Part shown: piece by piece, positions 19,290-52,995 of the stretch
Numbering within the stretch: the first letter of the stretch is position 1
How the letters are laid out: each line of letters starts with the position of its first letter
Assembly (NCBI GenBank): GCA_009782785.1
Contig: WRIJ01000011.1
Location: 1 to 52,995 of the forward strand
Length of the DNA: 52,995 nt
Reading direction: 5' to 3'
From: Propionibacteriaceae bacterium
GTDB taxonomy: Bacteria > Actinomycetota > Actinomycetes > Propionibacteriales > Propionibacteriaceae
Translations under genes and position numbers: made by a program
Notes under the pieces: model-generated
Told to the model about the DNA's origin: nothing
Database searches by the model: none
What the model saw: the letters and a program-made list of their open reading frames with translations, nothing else

Positions 19290-19333
19290 CCTGGACCCTG
19301 CGAGTCGCTTCGCTCCGCAGGGTGACATCTGAT
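19290..19333. repeat. Dispersed hairpin repeat copy
   Basis: ACCCTGCG...CGCAGGGT arms around GAGTCGCTTCGCTC, a perfect outer stem. The copy lies between the divergent regulator and nifJ genes. Confidence 0.85.
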
Positions 19334-31025: not shown

Positions 31026-31745
31026 ATGGAGTTGGTGGCACTCGAAGGATTACACGCGGTCAAACATGCTCTGCGGTTCGGAGCAAATATCAACGAGATT
31101 CTTAGTGACAACAAGGACCGAGCCTTGGGGTTAGCTGAAGGGATCTGCCCTGATCTGGTGCCTGCGTTGAGGGAGCGGATCCAGCCCATGACCGCAGCTG
31201 AGATGAAGCAATGTTCCACACAGCCGATACCCACCCATGTGTTGGGGTTCGCTGAACCACCACAGTGGAGTTTCGAAGCCTGTTTGCCGACCGATCAGCC
31301 AACGATTCTACTTGATGATCCACGCAATTCGAAGAACCTGGGTGCAGTCGTACGGCTTGGCGCGGCCGCGGGTGCCGCCGGCGTACTCGCCACGTCGGGG
31401 GTCGATTTCTTCAACCCGATGGCGGTACGCGGAGCCGCTGGTTTGCAGTGGGCAATCCCCTGCTGGTCGAGTGAGACCCTTGTCGATGATCTTCAAACCG
31501 TACGCACCAAGCGAGATCTCACGATTGTGGGACTCGACGCTGATGGGGAACCCTTCGTACCTGGTGATTTCCCGGGCCCCACCATTTTCGCTTTCGGTTC
31601 GGAGCGTACCGGCCTATCAGATCCAGTACGCGCCGTGTGCGACCACATCGTCTCCCTACCCATGGAACCCCACGTCTCCAGCCTCAACCTCGCCACCTCA
31701 GTGAGCGCAGTGATGTATTTGAGGCGATACTCACCCAGGATTTGA
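31026..31745 (+). CDS. TrmH/SpoU-family (SPOUT) RNA 2'-O-methyltransferase
   Basis: 239-aa AdoMet-dependent RNA ribose methyltransferase. The SPOUT knot motifs are all present: LDDPRNSKNLGAVVRLGAA (motif 1), FAFGSERTGLS (motif 2) and VSLPMEPHVSSLNLATSVS (motif 3). The N-terminal 75 residues resemble the substrate-binding part of RlmB-type enzymes but are short. tRNA versus 23S rRNA as substrate is not decided by motif. It is followed by a 700-bp repeat field with no gene. Confidence 0.9.
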   Translation: MELVALEGLHAVKHALRFGANINEILSDNKDRALGLAEGICPDLVPALRERIQPMTAAEMKQCSTQPIPTHVLGFAEPPQWSFEACLPTDQPTILLDDPRNSKNLGAVVRLGAAAGAAGVLATSGVDFFNPMAVRGAAGLQWAIPCWSSETLVDDLQTVRTKRDLTIVGLDADGEPFVPGDFPGPTIFAFGSERTGLSDPVRAVCDHIVSLPMEPHVSSLNLATSVSAVMYLRRYSPRI

Positions 31746-32444
31746 ATGCTGCGCTCAAACTCACGTCACCCTGCGGAGCGACTCGCAGTGCGCACACGGG
31801 GGAGTCCCCATATTCCCGTCACCCTGCTCAGCGAAGCCTTCCCCACCGTCACCCTGAACAGATGAACCCCTACCGTCACCCTGCTCAGCGGAACCATCCC
31901 CTACCGTCACCCTGCTCAGCGGAACCATCCCCACCGTCACCCTGCGGAGCGAAGCGACTCGCAGGGTCCAGAAATCACATTTGAATAGCTGTGGAGTCTG
32001 GATTCCTGCCAAGTCGTGCTGGTGCCCTCCGCGGAATGACATTTGAGAGTCACATACCGACCGCTACTGTTTAGCGGTGAATGCTACAAACGTCGCGTAG
32101 TGACCGCTTGCGCACTGGTCACTCTACTCCGCGCACTGATCCAGTGAGGTGCATACGATGAGTCACAACGCAACGATCTTGCGAGCACGCCGCCAAGGGG
32201 TTGCGGACACGGAATAGCCAGTCATGTCACCCTGCTGAGCCCGCTAGGGCGACTCGCAGGGTCCAGATATCATACTGACCATGGTGGTGACCGTCGGTGA
32301 TACATGATCACCCACAGACTCTCATGCGGGGAACTCGTTAGTCTGGATTCCGCGAGTCGCTTCGCTCCGCGGAATGACACTGTTGGGTTGTCATTGCCAA
32401 GCGAAGACACAGGGTGGTCGCGTCACACGCAGATGGGAGTGGCG
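31746..32444. repeat. Gene-free repeat field: 30-bp array and several hairpins
   Basis: About 700 bp without a supportable gene. A hairpin copy lies at 31764-31790. An array of about 30-bp units sharing CCGTCACCCTG starts at 31816, 31846, 31873, 31904 and 31934 (spacings 30, 27, 31, 30). Hairpins follow at 31941-31974 and 32009-32041 (arms ATTCC/GGAAT type), then a second two-hairpin set at 32226-32262 and 32346-32378; the latter has perfect ATTCCGCG/CGCGGAAT arms. Unit types (CTGCTCAGCGGAAC, CTGAACAGATGAAC, CTGCGGAGCGAAG) are the same as those inside ispH. Confidence 0.9.
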
Positions 32445-33704
32445 CTAGCGAACCTCAGGGGGTAGGGCGAAAGTGAGGGTTTCGTCGATACACTGGTTTT
32501 CGATGACCTCGTTAAAACCTGAAGTTTGGAGGAAATCAACGACCTCGCGTACGAGATAATCAGGGACGGATGCACCCGAGGTCACACCGACCGTACACAC
32601 ATCACTCATCCATTCAGGAATAATCTGGGTCACATCATCAATGAGTTGAGCACCACGAGCACCCGCATCCAACGCGACCTCAACCAGCCGTACTGAATTG
32701 GATGAATTAGCTGAGCCCACCACGAGTACAAGGTCACACTGCGGGGCAACCTCCCGTACTGCTGACTGACGGTTCTGCGTGGCATAACAGATGTCCTGAC
32801 TGGGTGGATCGGTGAGCGCCGGGAACCGTGAGCGTAAACGAGCGACCGTTTCTCGGGTCTCATCCACACTGAGTGTTGTTTGTGACAGCCACGCGAGGCG
32901 AGCAGGATCCGCCACCTCGACAGTATCGGCATCACCCTGTTCGATAATGCGGATCGAATCCGGAGCCTCACCCTGGGTGCCCTCGACCTCCTCATGGCCT
33001 TCATGCCCAATGAGTAGGATTTCCAAACCTGCTTTGGCGAGACGCTGGGCTTCCTTATGTACCTTGGTGACCAATGGGCAGGTTGCATCAATTGTCACCA
33101 GGTTGCGCTGCTGGGCGGCAATACGCACCGCTGGGGACACTCCATGGGCCGAGAACACAACCACACTGCCGATGGGTACCTCATCGACTTCATCAACAAA
33201 AATCGCGCCCTTACCCCGGAGCGTGTTCACCACATGCTTGTTGTGGACGATTTCTTTACGTACGTACACCCCTGGACCATGGATATCAAGCGCCCTCTCC
33301 ACGGTCGCGACAGCGCGATCCACCCCAGCACAGTATCCGCGCGGTGACACCAGGATCACCCGACGAGTTTCCCCACCGTCACCCTGCGGAGCGAAGCCTT
33401 CCCCACCGTCACCCTCCCCACCGTCACCCTGAACAGATGAACCCCTACCGTCACCCTGCTCAGCGGAACCATCCCCACCGTCACCCTGCGGAGCGAAGCC
33501 TTCCCCACCGTCACCCTGAACAGATGAACTCCTACCGTCACCCTGCTCAGCGGAACCATCCCCACCGTCACCCTGCGGAGCGAAGCGACTCGCAGGGTCC
33601 AGAAACCCCACTCGCTCAACTGTAGAGTCTGGATTCTGTAAATCCGGGCAGAAAGACGAGCGGGACTGCCCCACTGTCTCGTCTCTACTGTCCCTCGAAG
33701 TCAT
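32445..33704 (-). CDS. ispH: 4-hydroxy-3-methylbut-2-enyl diphosphate reductase with repeat-encoded N-terminus
   Basis: Last enzyme of the methylerythritol phosphate pathway; makes IPP and DMAPP using a [4Fe-4S] cluster. The catalytic part runs from about residue 115 to 419: [17 protein letters not shown] and [14 protein letters not shown] hold the first two cluster cysteines, CYATQNRQ the third, and [11 protein letters not shown] binds substrate. Residues about 35-113 are encoded by a dispersed 30-bp repeat ([19 protein letters not shown] units). No in-frame ATG, and no GTG with a ribosome site, lies between the repeat and the GYCAG motif. TAGGAT 6 nt before the ATG at 33704 supports leaderless translation from there. 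All unit spacings are multiples of 3. Confidence 0.9.
33371..33660. repeat. 30-bp repeat array and hairpin inside the ispH coding region
   Basis: CCGTCACCCT units start at 33376, 33406, 33421, 33448, 33478, 33508, 33535 and 33565 (spacings 30, 15, 27, 30, 30, 27, 30), followed by a hairpin copy (33571-33603) and part of the spacer (GTAGAGTCTGGATTCTG). It is the same element as at 31816-32041 but with only in-frame spacings. Confidence 0.92.
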
Positions 33705-33710
33705 ACCCAA

Positions 33711-33716
33711 ATCCTA
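33711..33716 (-). promoter_or_regulatory. -10 box of leaderless ispH promoter
   Basis: TAGGAT on the minus strand, exactly 6 nt (TTGGGT) before the ATG at 33704. It decides the ispH start and thereby implies that the repeat is translated. Confidence 0.6.
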
Positions 33717-33725
33717 CCGTGGCGC

Positions 33726-33731
33726 TACACT
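33726..33731 (+). promoter_or_regulatory. Candidate -10 box for the 89-aa membrane protein gene
   Basis: TACACT on the plus strand, 31 bp before the ATG at 33763, back to back with the ispH promoter 10 bp away. A GAAGGA ribosome site lies in the predicted leader. Confidence 0.4.
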
Positions 33732-33762
33732 GGTGACCTCAACCCTGCAACGAAGGATCATC

Positions 33763-34032
33763 ATGAAATTCCCCGAGAAGTACGCGCAATGGATGGATAA
33801 AGCAACAGCACTATGGAATTCCATGCCACCAATCTGGCATACGATCCTCATCATTTCTGCCATCATCCTTCTTGTCTTATTGATCTTCGGTTGGGTGAAG
33901 AGCTTCCTGAAAACCTGGATCAAGATCATTCTCATTGTCGCCATCGTGGCCGTGGTGTGTATCGCCTTCCCCTGGGCTGGTGCATCCTTCATGGCCCTCG
34001 TCGACTGGGCGTGGTCCGCCATCTTCGGTTGA
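33763..34032 (+). CDS. Small two-helix membrane protein of unknown function
   Basis: 89 aa. A charged N-terminus (MKFPEKYAQWMDKATALWN) precedes two hydrophobic helices (about 28-50, TILIISAIILLVLLIFGWV; and about 56-80, IKIILIVAIVAVVCIAFPWA) joined by a short basic turn, and a Trp-rich end. GAAGGA lies before the ATG at 33763; the frame extends ten codons upstream but that start would be on top of the promoter. Divergent from ispH. No family recognised. Confidence 0.72.
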   Translation: MKFPEKYAQWMDKATALWNSMPPIWHTILIISAIILLVLLIFGWVKSFLKTWIKIILIVAIVAVVCIAFPWAGASFMALVDWAWSAIFG

Positions 34033-41290: not shown

Positions 41291-41700
41291 TGAGACTCCC
41301 CTTGCTACTTTCGCCCCGAATCGATGAAGGAAAACATCATCTCATCAGTGACCACTCCGGTTTGAACTCTCGTCATGCCAGATAGGGGTGACGCTCACCG
41401 ACCCCGTCTTCCTAGGCAAGCCAAGCCCACCAGCCCCGTCTTCCTGCGCGGAGAAAGCCCCACCAACCCTGTCACCGCGTACGGGCGAAGCCCCACTCAC
41501 CTTGTCATGCTGTGTGCGGACGAAGCCCCATTCACCCCGTCTTCCTGCGCGCGGAGCGTCGCAGGATCCAGATATGTGGTAAACCATCATTGGTGAGACT
41601 GGCGTGGTTGACGTTCACCCACAGACTCTGACAGGCGATACATATGGTGTCTGGTTTCTGCGAGTCGCCCTGGCGGGCTCCGCAGAAAGACGGAGACCGG
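41291..41700. repeat. Repeat array and two-hairpin element left of parDE
   Basis: Part of a 565-bp gene-free stretch. Units of about 33-35 bp sharing CCCGTCTTCCTGCGC or CTGTCACCG...GAAGCCCCAC run from 41400 to 41570. Then GATCCAGATATGTGG, a spacer with CACAGACTC, and a hairpin (41653-41691; arms TTTCTGCG/CGCAGAAA, loop GCCCTGGCGGGC). Bases 41532-41663 recur at 42528-42659. From 41700 to 41820 nothing else is recognised. Confidence 0.85.
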
Positions 41701-44391: not shown

Positions 44392-44780
44392 GTCCATTTT
44401 GGTTTGTATGGAGAGTTGGTGGTTGGTGATGACGGTCAGACTCCACAACTGTGGATAACCCAGTATCTGGATTCTGCGAGTCGCTTCGCTCCGCAGAATG
44501 ACATTGAGAGAGTCACCACGGTGGAGAGTCGATGGATTCCGCGAGTCGCCCTAGCGGGCTCCGCAGAAAGACGGGGTTAGTGTCACCCTGCGGAGCGCGC
44601 CAGCGCGACTCGCAGGGTCCAGATATCACATCAAGTGCGATGGTGGGCCTGTCGAACGTGGTCACCACGAACAGACTCTTCTTGGTGGTTGGTCGCTGAT
44701 TCTGGATTCCTGCCAAGTCGGGCTGGCGCCCTCCGCGGAATGACCATCTGGGTGGGGAGCGCGGAATGACTGGGTGAGTG
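44392..44780. repeat. Cluster of four dispersed hairpins in a gene-free stretch
   Basis: The 700 bp between the lipoprotein and the fab leader hold no supportable gene. Hairpins lie at about 44464-44497 (ATTCTGCG/CGCAGAAT arms), 44532-44573 (core GCCCTAGCGGGC), 44585-44622 (ACCCTGCG/CGCAGGGT, core GCGCGCCAGCGCG) and 44703-44742 (core GGGCTGGCGCCC). AGTCACCACGGTGGAGAGTC, between the first two, also occurs near 43583. Confidence 0.88.
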
Positions 44781-52827: not shown

Positions 52828-52864
52828 AAACGGTCCAGTACGCACTGTCCCTACGGTGGTGACT

Positions 52865-52995
52865 GGTGGACCCTGCGAGTCGCGGAGCCTGTGTTCCTCA
52901 CTTCGTTCGTCAACCACTTCCTTGGTTTCGGGATAGTGCGCAAGCGCACTCTCCGCTCAACCTGCGTCGTGGTGCTGCGGAGCCCGCCAGGGCGA
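52865..52995. repeat. Terminal repeat, inverted copy of the window start
   Basis: A degenerate hairpin (GGACCCTGCGAGTCGCGGAG) and then 97 bp (52899-52995) that are the exact reverse complement of 17-113, including the GTGCGC-TT-GCGCAC type palindrome. The match runs to the last base of the window, so it continues beyond. Confidence 0.93.

Follow-up and report, generated by a model that had tools for sequence, protein, structure and literature searches.

Palindromic repeats lying in frame within ispH and other core genes of a Propionibacteriaceae bacterium suggest long, tolerated protein extensions

The ispH gene of this Propionibacteriaceae genome (G000), located in a 52,995-nt stretch of DNA that was analysed whole (the window), carries a palindromic element and a tandem array of head units of that element between its first codons and the conserved enzyme core. 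Our preferred account, which we consider highly probable, is that the palindrome entered in frame and grew into an array, that translation begins upstream at a leaderless start, and that the resulting extension is tolerated. To judge from its sequence, the cell would produce enzymes bearing long unstructured extensions that derive from selfish-looking repeat DNA. An earlier sequence-only reading of this DNA had described the repeats in ispH; absent from it were the dispersed hairpin element of CGTC-REP type, an insertion likely older than the split from a sister species (G005), and the other core genes that were hit.

The ispH gene (4-hydroxy-3-methylbut-2-enyl diphosphate reductase) lies at 32445–33704 on the minus strand and encodes 419 amino acids from the ATG at 33704 (NCBIfam NF002189, E = 3.4e-152; Pfam PF02401 at residues 116–392). 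It gave a single match in the G000 genome. Matches to the IspH family start only at residues 114–118 of the open reading frame. The stretch preceding the PRGYCAG motif is 120 residues long, compared to a median of 20 residues in the 113 proteins, from 116 other loci, with signal-supported starts; the longest among these 113 were 111 residues, in the sister species G005, and then 66. Cysteines 125, 209 and 306 were invariant in an alignment of 40 sequences, and such cysteines bind the Fe-S cluster of IspH. Structure prediction with AlphaFold, based on 40 sequences, gave a pLDDT below 50 for residues 1–108 and an intact core with 253 residues at a pLDDT of 90 or higher: the N-terminal region is predicted to be disordered and the core well folded.

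Codons 1–15 of the gene (33660–33704, minus strand) are native and lie upstream of the repeats. These codons are followed by a palindromic element of 91 nt (33567–33657, minus strand), made up of two inverted hairpins with tails inward and one arm degenerate, which encodes 30 residues, and then by a tandem array of seven head-only units (33371–33566, minus strand). The array codes for a Gly/Asp/Gln/Ser-rich stretch, in agreement with the composition given earlier for the extension. The repeat-derived stretch, previously placed at about residues 35–113, is real and its true extent is wider: residues 16–111 (ATG 33704 = residue 1), or 96 residues of the 419. Units starting with CCGTCACCC were located within ispH at 33376, 33406, 33421, 33448, 33478, 33508, 33535 and 33565 (spacings 30, 15, 27, 30, 30, 27 and 30). 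Downstream of ispH, an intergenic head array with an element (31816–32041, plus strand) has unit starts at 31816, 31846, 31873, 31904 and 31934 (spacings 30, 27, 31 and 30), the array itself covering 31816–31945. The sequence-only reading had placed both sets of repeats correctly and had both spacing series right. Part of the ispH array (33478–33563) is 97% identical over 86 nt to the intergenic stretch 31816–31901, and TRF scores of 175 and 337 indicate that the arrays did not arise by chance. An additional hairpin copy is situated between ispH and the intergenic array (32340–32379, minus strand), and cores of further copies are found in the window at 19300–19318 and 44476–44494, both on the minus strand. 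No Rfam family matched the region 31700–33800 at E values up to 1.

Other tandem repeats were seen in the window. An 81-nt repeat at 38–212 (CACCACGACGCAG...AACGAAGTGTGGAA) resembles by eye a second module within a hairpin copy at another locus (L007) and within the inserts of gcvT (L323) and one dnaE2 gene of G005 (L275). At 41426–41555 there is a tandem array of GC-rich units of about 35 nt (CCCACTCACCCCGTCTTCCTGCGCGCGGACGAAGC), which are possibly head-like.

In-frame start candidates of ispH are ATG 33704 and the GTG codons at 33674, 33611, 33359 and 33350; CTG codons at 33602 and 33353 are also present. A distance of 6–7 nt between box and start codon is the mark of a leaderless gene. The -10 element TAGGAT was found at 33711–33716 (minus strand), 6 nt before ATG 33704, as had been claimed. 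The pattern TANNNT-N6/7-start marked an in-frame start codon ahead of the IspH core in 17/17 genus loci (window included), 20/20 other loci of the family and 77/79 named loci. Overall the signal was seen in 114 of 116 scored loci, at least one of which was counted twice (L031 = L121) and from which one more named locus was dropped for want of a motif match, compared to 43 of 3871 (1.1%) of all ATG and GTG codons in the genus loci. As there are 81 in-frame starts across the 17 genus loci, the chance of a match is roughly 5% per locus and not 1%. A TANNNT box at -10 is found in most mycobacterial promoters (PMC3898074). In both insert-bearing species, G000 and G005, the upstream ATG still follows the box directly. 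GTG 33611, which falls within the element, is also preceded by a TANNNT box (TACAGT) at 7 nt; a start at this codon would still leave the array within the protein. The conserved signal supports the earlier claim that the start lies upstream of the array, and translation very probably starts at ATG 33704. With a leaderless start signal both upstream and conserved, the doubt whether an N-terminal insert is translated is settled as far as sequence can settle it. The gene looks leaderless in nearly all the actinobacterial loci scored, and in most of the 20 family loci TAGACT stands 6–7 nt before the ispH start.

The ispH gene of G005 (L112) carries an in-frame insertion at the same site, with different contents and a total length differing by 27 nt. 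Common to both inserts, and at the same place, are QNPDST(V/L)E(R/Q)(V/L) and 14 further residues. The sequence-only reading had proposed an array in an essential gene under selection for frame, with length changes among related ispH genes in multiples of three. The G005 insert agrees in its frame and total length; at the level of single units the agreement is incomplete, one G005 ispH spacing being 26 nt. Selection for frame was also supported by the distance between successive heads 9–45 nt apart: 18 of 20 spacings within insert-bearing genes were divisible by 3, compared to 55 of 118 elsewhere, that is, in the rest of the fetched stretches, which may include unrecognised genes (Fisher p = 0.0002). 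The in-gene spacings came from ten genes, truB and gcvT of G000 yielding none, and the 30 + 15 of ispH appears as 45 because the head pattern used here misses one unit. The two in-gene exceptions were the 26-nt spacing of G005 ispH and one of 22 nt in a dnaE2 gene; the commonest spacing outside insert-bearing genes was 26 nt. Across 25 shared codons of the ispH inserts there were 2 synonymous and 4 non-synonymous changes, compared to 97 and 42 in the core (Fisher p = 0.08). These comparisons hint that the frame of the insert is constrained and its sequence is not. In-frame insertions of several tens of residues also interrupt the central part of IspH in two other members of the genus, G017 and G018; neither genome contains a copy of the element core pattern, and these insertions are therefore a separate matter.

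A 19-nt core of the element, with up to one mismatch, had 97 copies in G000, 84 in G005 and one in G003, and was absent from 16 other genomes of the genus, so that each of the 17 members besides G000 and G005 holds at most one. A reversed control pattern gave 0 copies in G000. In a sample of 396 genomes of the phylum, which did not include G005, an exact 17-mer was present in four: 85 copies in G000 and one each in the other three, which argues against a wide spread of the element in the phylum. Neither phage carriage nor mobilisation by a RAYT found support: viral contigs gave no exact match to the 19-nt core, and the draft genomes of G000 and G005 gave no match to the Y1 transposase family PF01797. 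PF01797 is present in two other members of the genus.

The element has a 13-nt loop, GAGCGAAGCGACT, between 8-bp arms; the loop was included in the search pattern, hence one loop size was sought. Perfect outer five-pair stems were found in 69 of the 97 G000 copies, compared to a mean of 18.6 and a maximum of 31 in 2000 shuffles, and in 34 of 40 fetched G005 copies (shuffle mean 15.3, maximum 25). The inner stem pairs were fixed by the search pattern and give no evidence of pairing. The first outer pair was A-T in 74/97 G000 copies. The stems vary yet stay complementary, as a covarying 8-bp stem. The tag in G000 was CGTC in 46/97, TGTC in 31/97 and GGTC in 15/97, and a CCA tail followed in 72/97; in G005, where 40 of the 84 cores were fetched from stretches partly chosen for long open frames, the tags were CGTC 30/40, TGTC 3/40 and GGTC 4/40, and the tail was present in 38/40. 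Inverted pairs with tags outside made up 35/97 in G000 by one pattern.

By sequence features the element resembles the CGTC-tagged REPs (Di Nocera, De Gregorio and Rocco 2013, PMC3733652), with a differing loop and head arrays. Shared with that family, as described there, are a CGTC or TGTC tag, an 8-bp stem beginning A-T, complementary stem changes, a CCA tail, dimers with tags outside, and copies inside coding genes, those of DnaE2 and TruB among them; in G000 and G005, too, no Y1 transposase match was found. The G000 element differs in its 13-nt loop, compared to the usual 4–5 nt (exceptions are reported), in its tandem head-only arrays and in its actinomycetotal host, and the GGTC copies of G000 and G005 fall outside the CGTC/TGTC rule. 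Head-to-head (HH) dimers are stated to predominate in the CGTC-tagged family, compared to the 35/97 found here. The 96 repeat-encoded residues of IspH exceed the 43–82 that REP clusters, called rare, are reported to add to proteins (PMC3733652). Intragenic CGTC-tagged REPs have been described, including RPE-4 and RPE-6 of Rickettsia conorii and copies in DnaE2 and TruB of several species, and truB is decorated by REPs in several Proteobacteria; the main text of that paper does not contain the word 'Actinobacteria' and mentions untagged REP-like sequences in M. tuberculosis (PMC3733652). A table in RepRanger 2025 holds three Actinomycetota genomes, Acidipropionibacterium among them; REPs themselves are thus already known from the phylum. 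In the open-licence literature, no case of in-gene palindromes in Actinobacteria or Propionibacteriaceae was among the matches listed.

The Rickettsia palindromic elements RPE-1, RPE-4 and RPE-6 are likewise palindromes that sit in frame within numerous unrelated genes, truB among them. Unlike the present element they belong to another phylum, and the likeness is one of description and not base by base; the accounts of RPEs drawn on here contain no counterpart of the tandem head arrays. The RAYT-associated GTAG REPs are also short hairpins, often inverted pairs and mostly intergenic, but no GTAG tag was seen in the element copies and neither G000 nor G005 has a Y1 transposase match. In ordinary intragenic tandem repeats of local origin, the unit length keeps the frame inside open reading frames. 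The ispH unit differs from these in being the head of a dispersed genomic element and not locally born.

Sequence comparison places the element in frame in mnmA, tsaB, truB and gcvT of G000 besides ispH, and in tsaB, truB, two dnaE2 genes, cydDC and an AGE epimerase gene of G005 besides ispH. Between fixed motifs, MnmA of G000 has 81 residues compared to 27 in five relatives, and TsaB has 154 in G000 and 82 in G005 compared to 42, 28 and 44 in three relatives. MnmA residues 38–102 had a pLDDT below 50 in the AlphaFold prediction; mnmA was not found in G005. In truB the element supplies a C-terminal tail in both species, and gcvT of G000 has an internal insert. By eye from translations, each of the two dnaE2 genes of G005 is interrupted by inserts at two or three sites; a single insert lies in a linker of cydDC, and the AGE epimerase has two. 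Domain matches, together with inspection by eye, flank the insert on both sides in gcvT, dnaE2, cydDC and the AGE epimerase. The inserts of ispH, tsaB and truB lie at the same place in G000 and G005, their contents and lengths differing and the frame kept; shared sites in these genes suggest that the insertions are most likely older than the split. The two dnaE2-like genes of G005 (L274 and L275) encode error-prone polymerases, and the sole polymerase match listed for G000 was a distant DnaE with 30% identity.

In G000, open reading frames were surveyed for the 97 cores with up to one mismatch, and overlapping frames of at least 180 aa were read. Four of the 97 cores lie within confirmed genes (ispH, mnmA and tsaB), and 51 overlap a mechanical open reading frame of at least 100 aa, mostly of unconfirmed reality. 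Four of 97 would be far fewer than random insertion in a gene-dense genome should give. The list of in-gene inserts is a lower bound, since the truB and gcvT inserts of G000 fall outside the 97 cores. Genes whose start possibly lies downstream were left out: galK (L222) and DUF2207 (L224), PrsW-like (L229) and Imm5-like (L211) genes in G000, and ilvD (L284) and, by eye, an aldo/keto-reductase-like frame (L276) in G005. Recurrence of gene families, at least 2 of 8 falling on a list of 40 out of 1600 genes, is only suggestive (p = 0.016, with assumed list and numbers).

Array and element could instead form a 5' untranslated region, with translation from GTG 33359 or GTG 33350 and an open frame that is a by-product of stop-poor, GC-rich units; we regard this as unlikely. 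GTG 33359 (33357–33359, minus strand), immediately before the conserved core, is in frame and could start an enzyme of near-normal length. Two of the three frames on the coding strand of the array are open, the second as an 87-aa frame at 33356–33619, and reading through the repeats without a stop is therefore not unusual; mis-annotated starts lie behind many N-terminal REPs by the warning of Di Nocera et al. (2013, PMC3733652). However, GTG 33359 stands 5 codons before PRGYCAG, whereas none of the 113 signal-supported starts in other loci lies closer to this motif than 8 codons, and no evident Shine-Dalgarno precedes it in this genome or at the corresponding position of G005 (by eye). None was obvious for GTG 33350 between the array and GYCAG in this window. 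The sequence-only reading had stated that no supported start lies in this interval: the two GTG codons do exist there in frame, and neither looks supported. The leaderless box that both insert-bearing species keep ahead of the upstream ATG argues for the longer protein, as do the mnmA, tsaB, gcvT and dnaE2 inserts, which are internal and so cannot be 5' leaders.

An extension retained in two species, rich in Gly, Asp, Ser and Gln and paralleled by element-derived tails at the TruB C-terminus of both, might also be a module selected for its function, such as a tail for solubility, localisation or regulation. This is very improbable: the contents differ between species, the substitution counts in the shared codons lean away from the pattern of the core, the same sequences occur in unrelated proteins, few cores lie in confirmed genes, and the extension is predicted to be disordered. 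Least credible of all is an artefact of assembly or binning in which collapsed or joined repeats make the array only seem to lie within ispH. G000 is a draft of 26 contigs with an estimated contamination of 6.48%, and several contig ends match repeats: window positions 52855–52995 and the starts of contigs C3, C4, C7, C9 and C18 match element-encoded peptides, a sign that breaks in the assembly are probably due to the element family, and the exact copy number of the ispH array is uncertain and may be misassembled. Against an artefact stand the homologous insertion in a separate genome, G005, the non-repeat sequence on both flanks and the intact frame.

Under the preferred account of in-frame insertion and a leaderless upstream start, a CGTC-REP-like element would have entered ispH at a tolerant N-terminal linker, in an ancestor shared by the G000 species and G005, and would have been kept because it was in frame and free of stops. 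Its head end would then have grown into a tandem array in the G000 lineage, perhaps through recombination with the near-identical intergenic array about 1.3–1.7 kb away, or conversion by it. With a leaderless start upstream and IspH single-copy, changes that are not multiples of three would have been purged. The product would be a normal IspH with a disordered N-terminal extension of roughly 110 residues, tolerated rather than useful, and the same process may have given other core proteins of both species in-frame elements at their loops, linkers and termini. Translation, stability and neutrality of the extension are inferred, as are the way in which the array grew and the movement of the element.

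It is a tentative and rather doubtful suggestion that CGTC-type palindromes recur in a small set of genes across distant phyla: truB and dnaE2, joined here by the tRNA-modification genes mnmA and tsaB. If true, a common mechanism of targeting or a common benefit would lie behind the recurrence, and the tandem head arrays would illustrate the continued growth of inserts within core proteins. A 2024 review of MITEs singles out the RPEs as the prime example of in-frame fusion and considers it conceivable that something similar happens elsewhere (PMC10969869); selfish-looking palindromes that invade core protein genes in Actinomycetota would be such a process outside Rickettsia. A sister species with shared, diverging inserts would offer a natural test of how far repeat-derived protein is tolerated in an essential enzyme.
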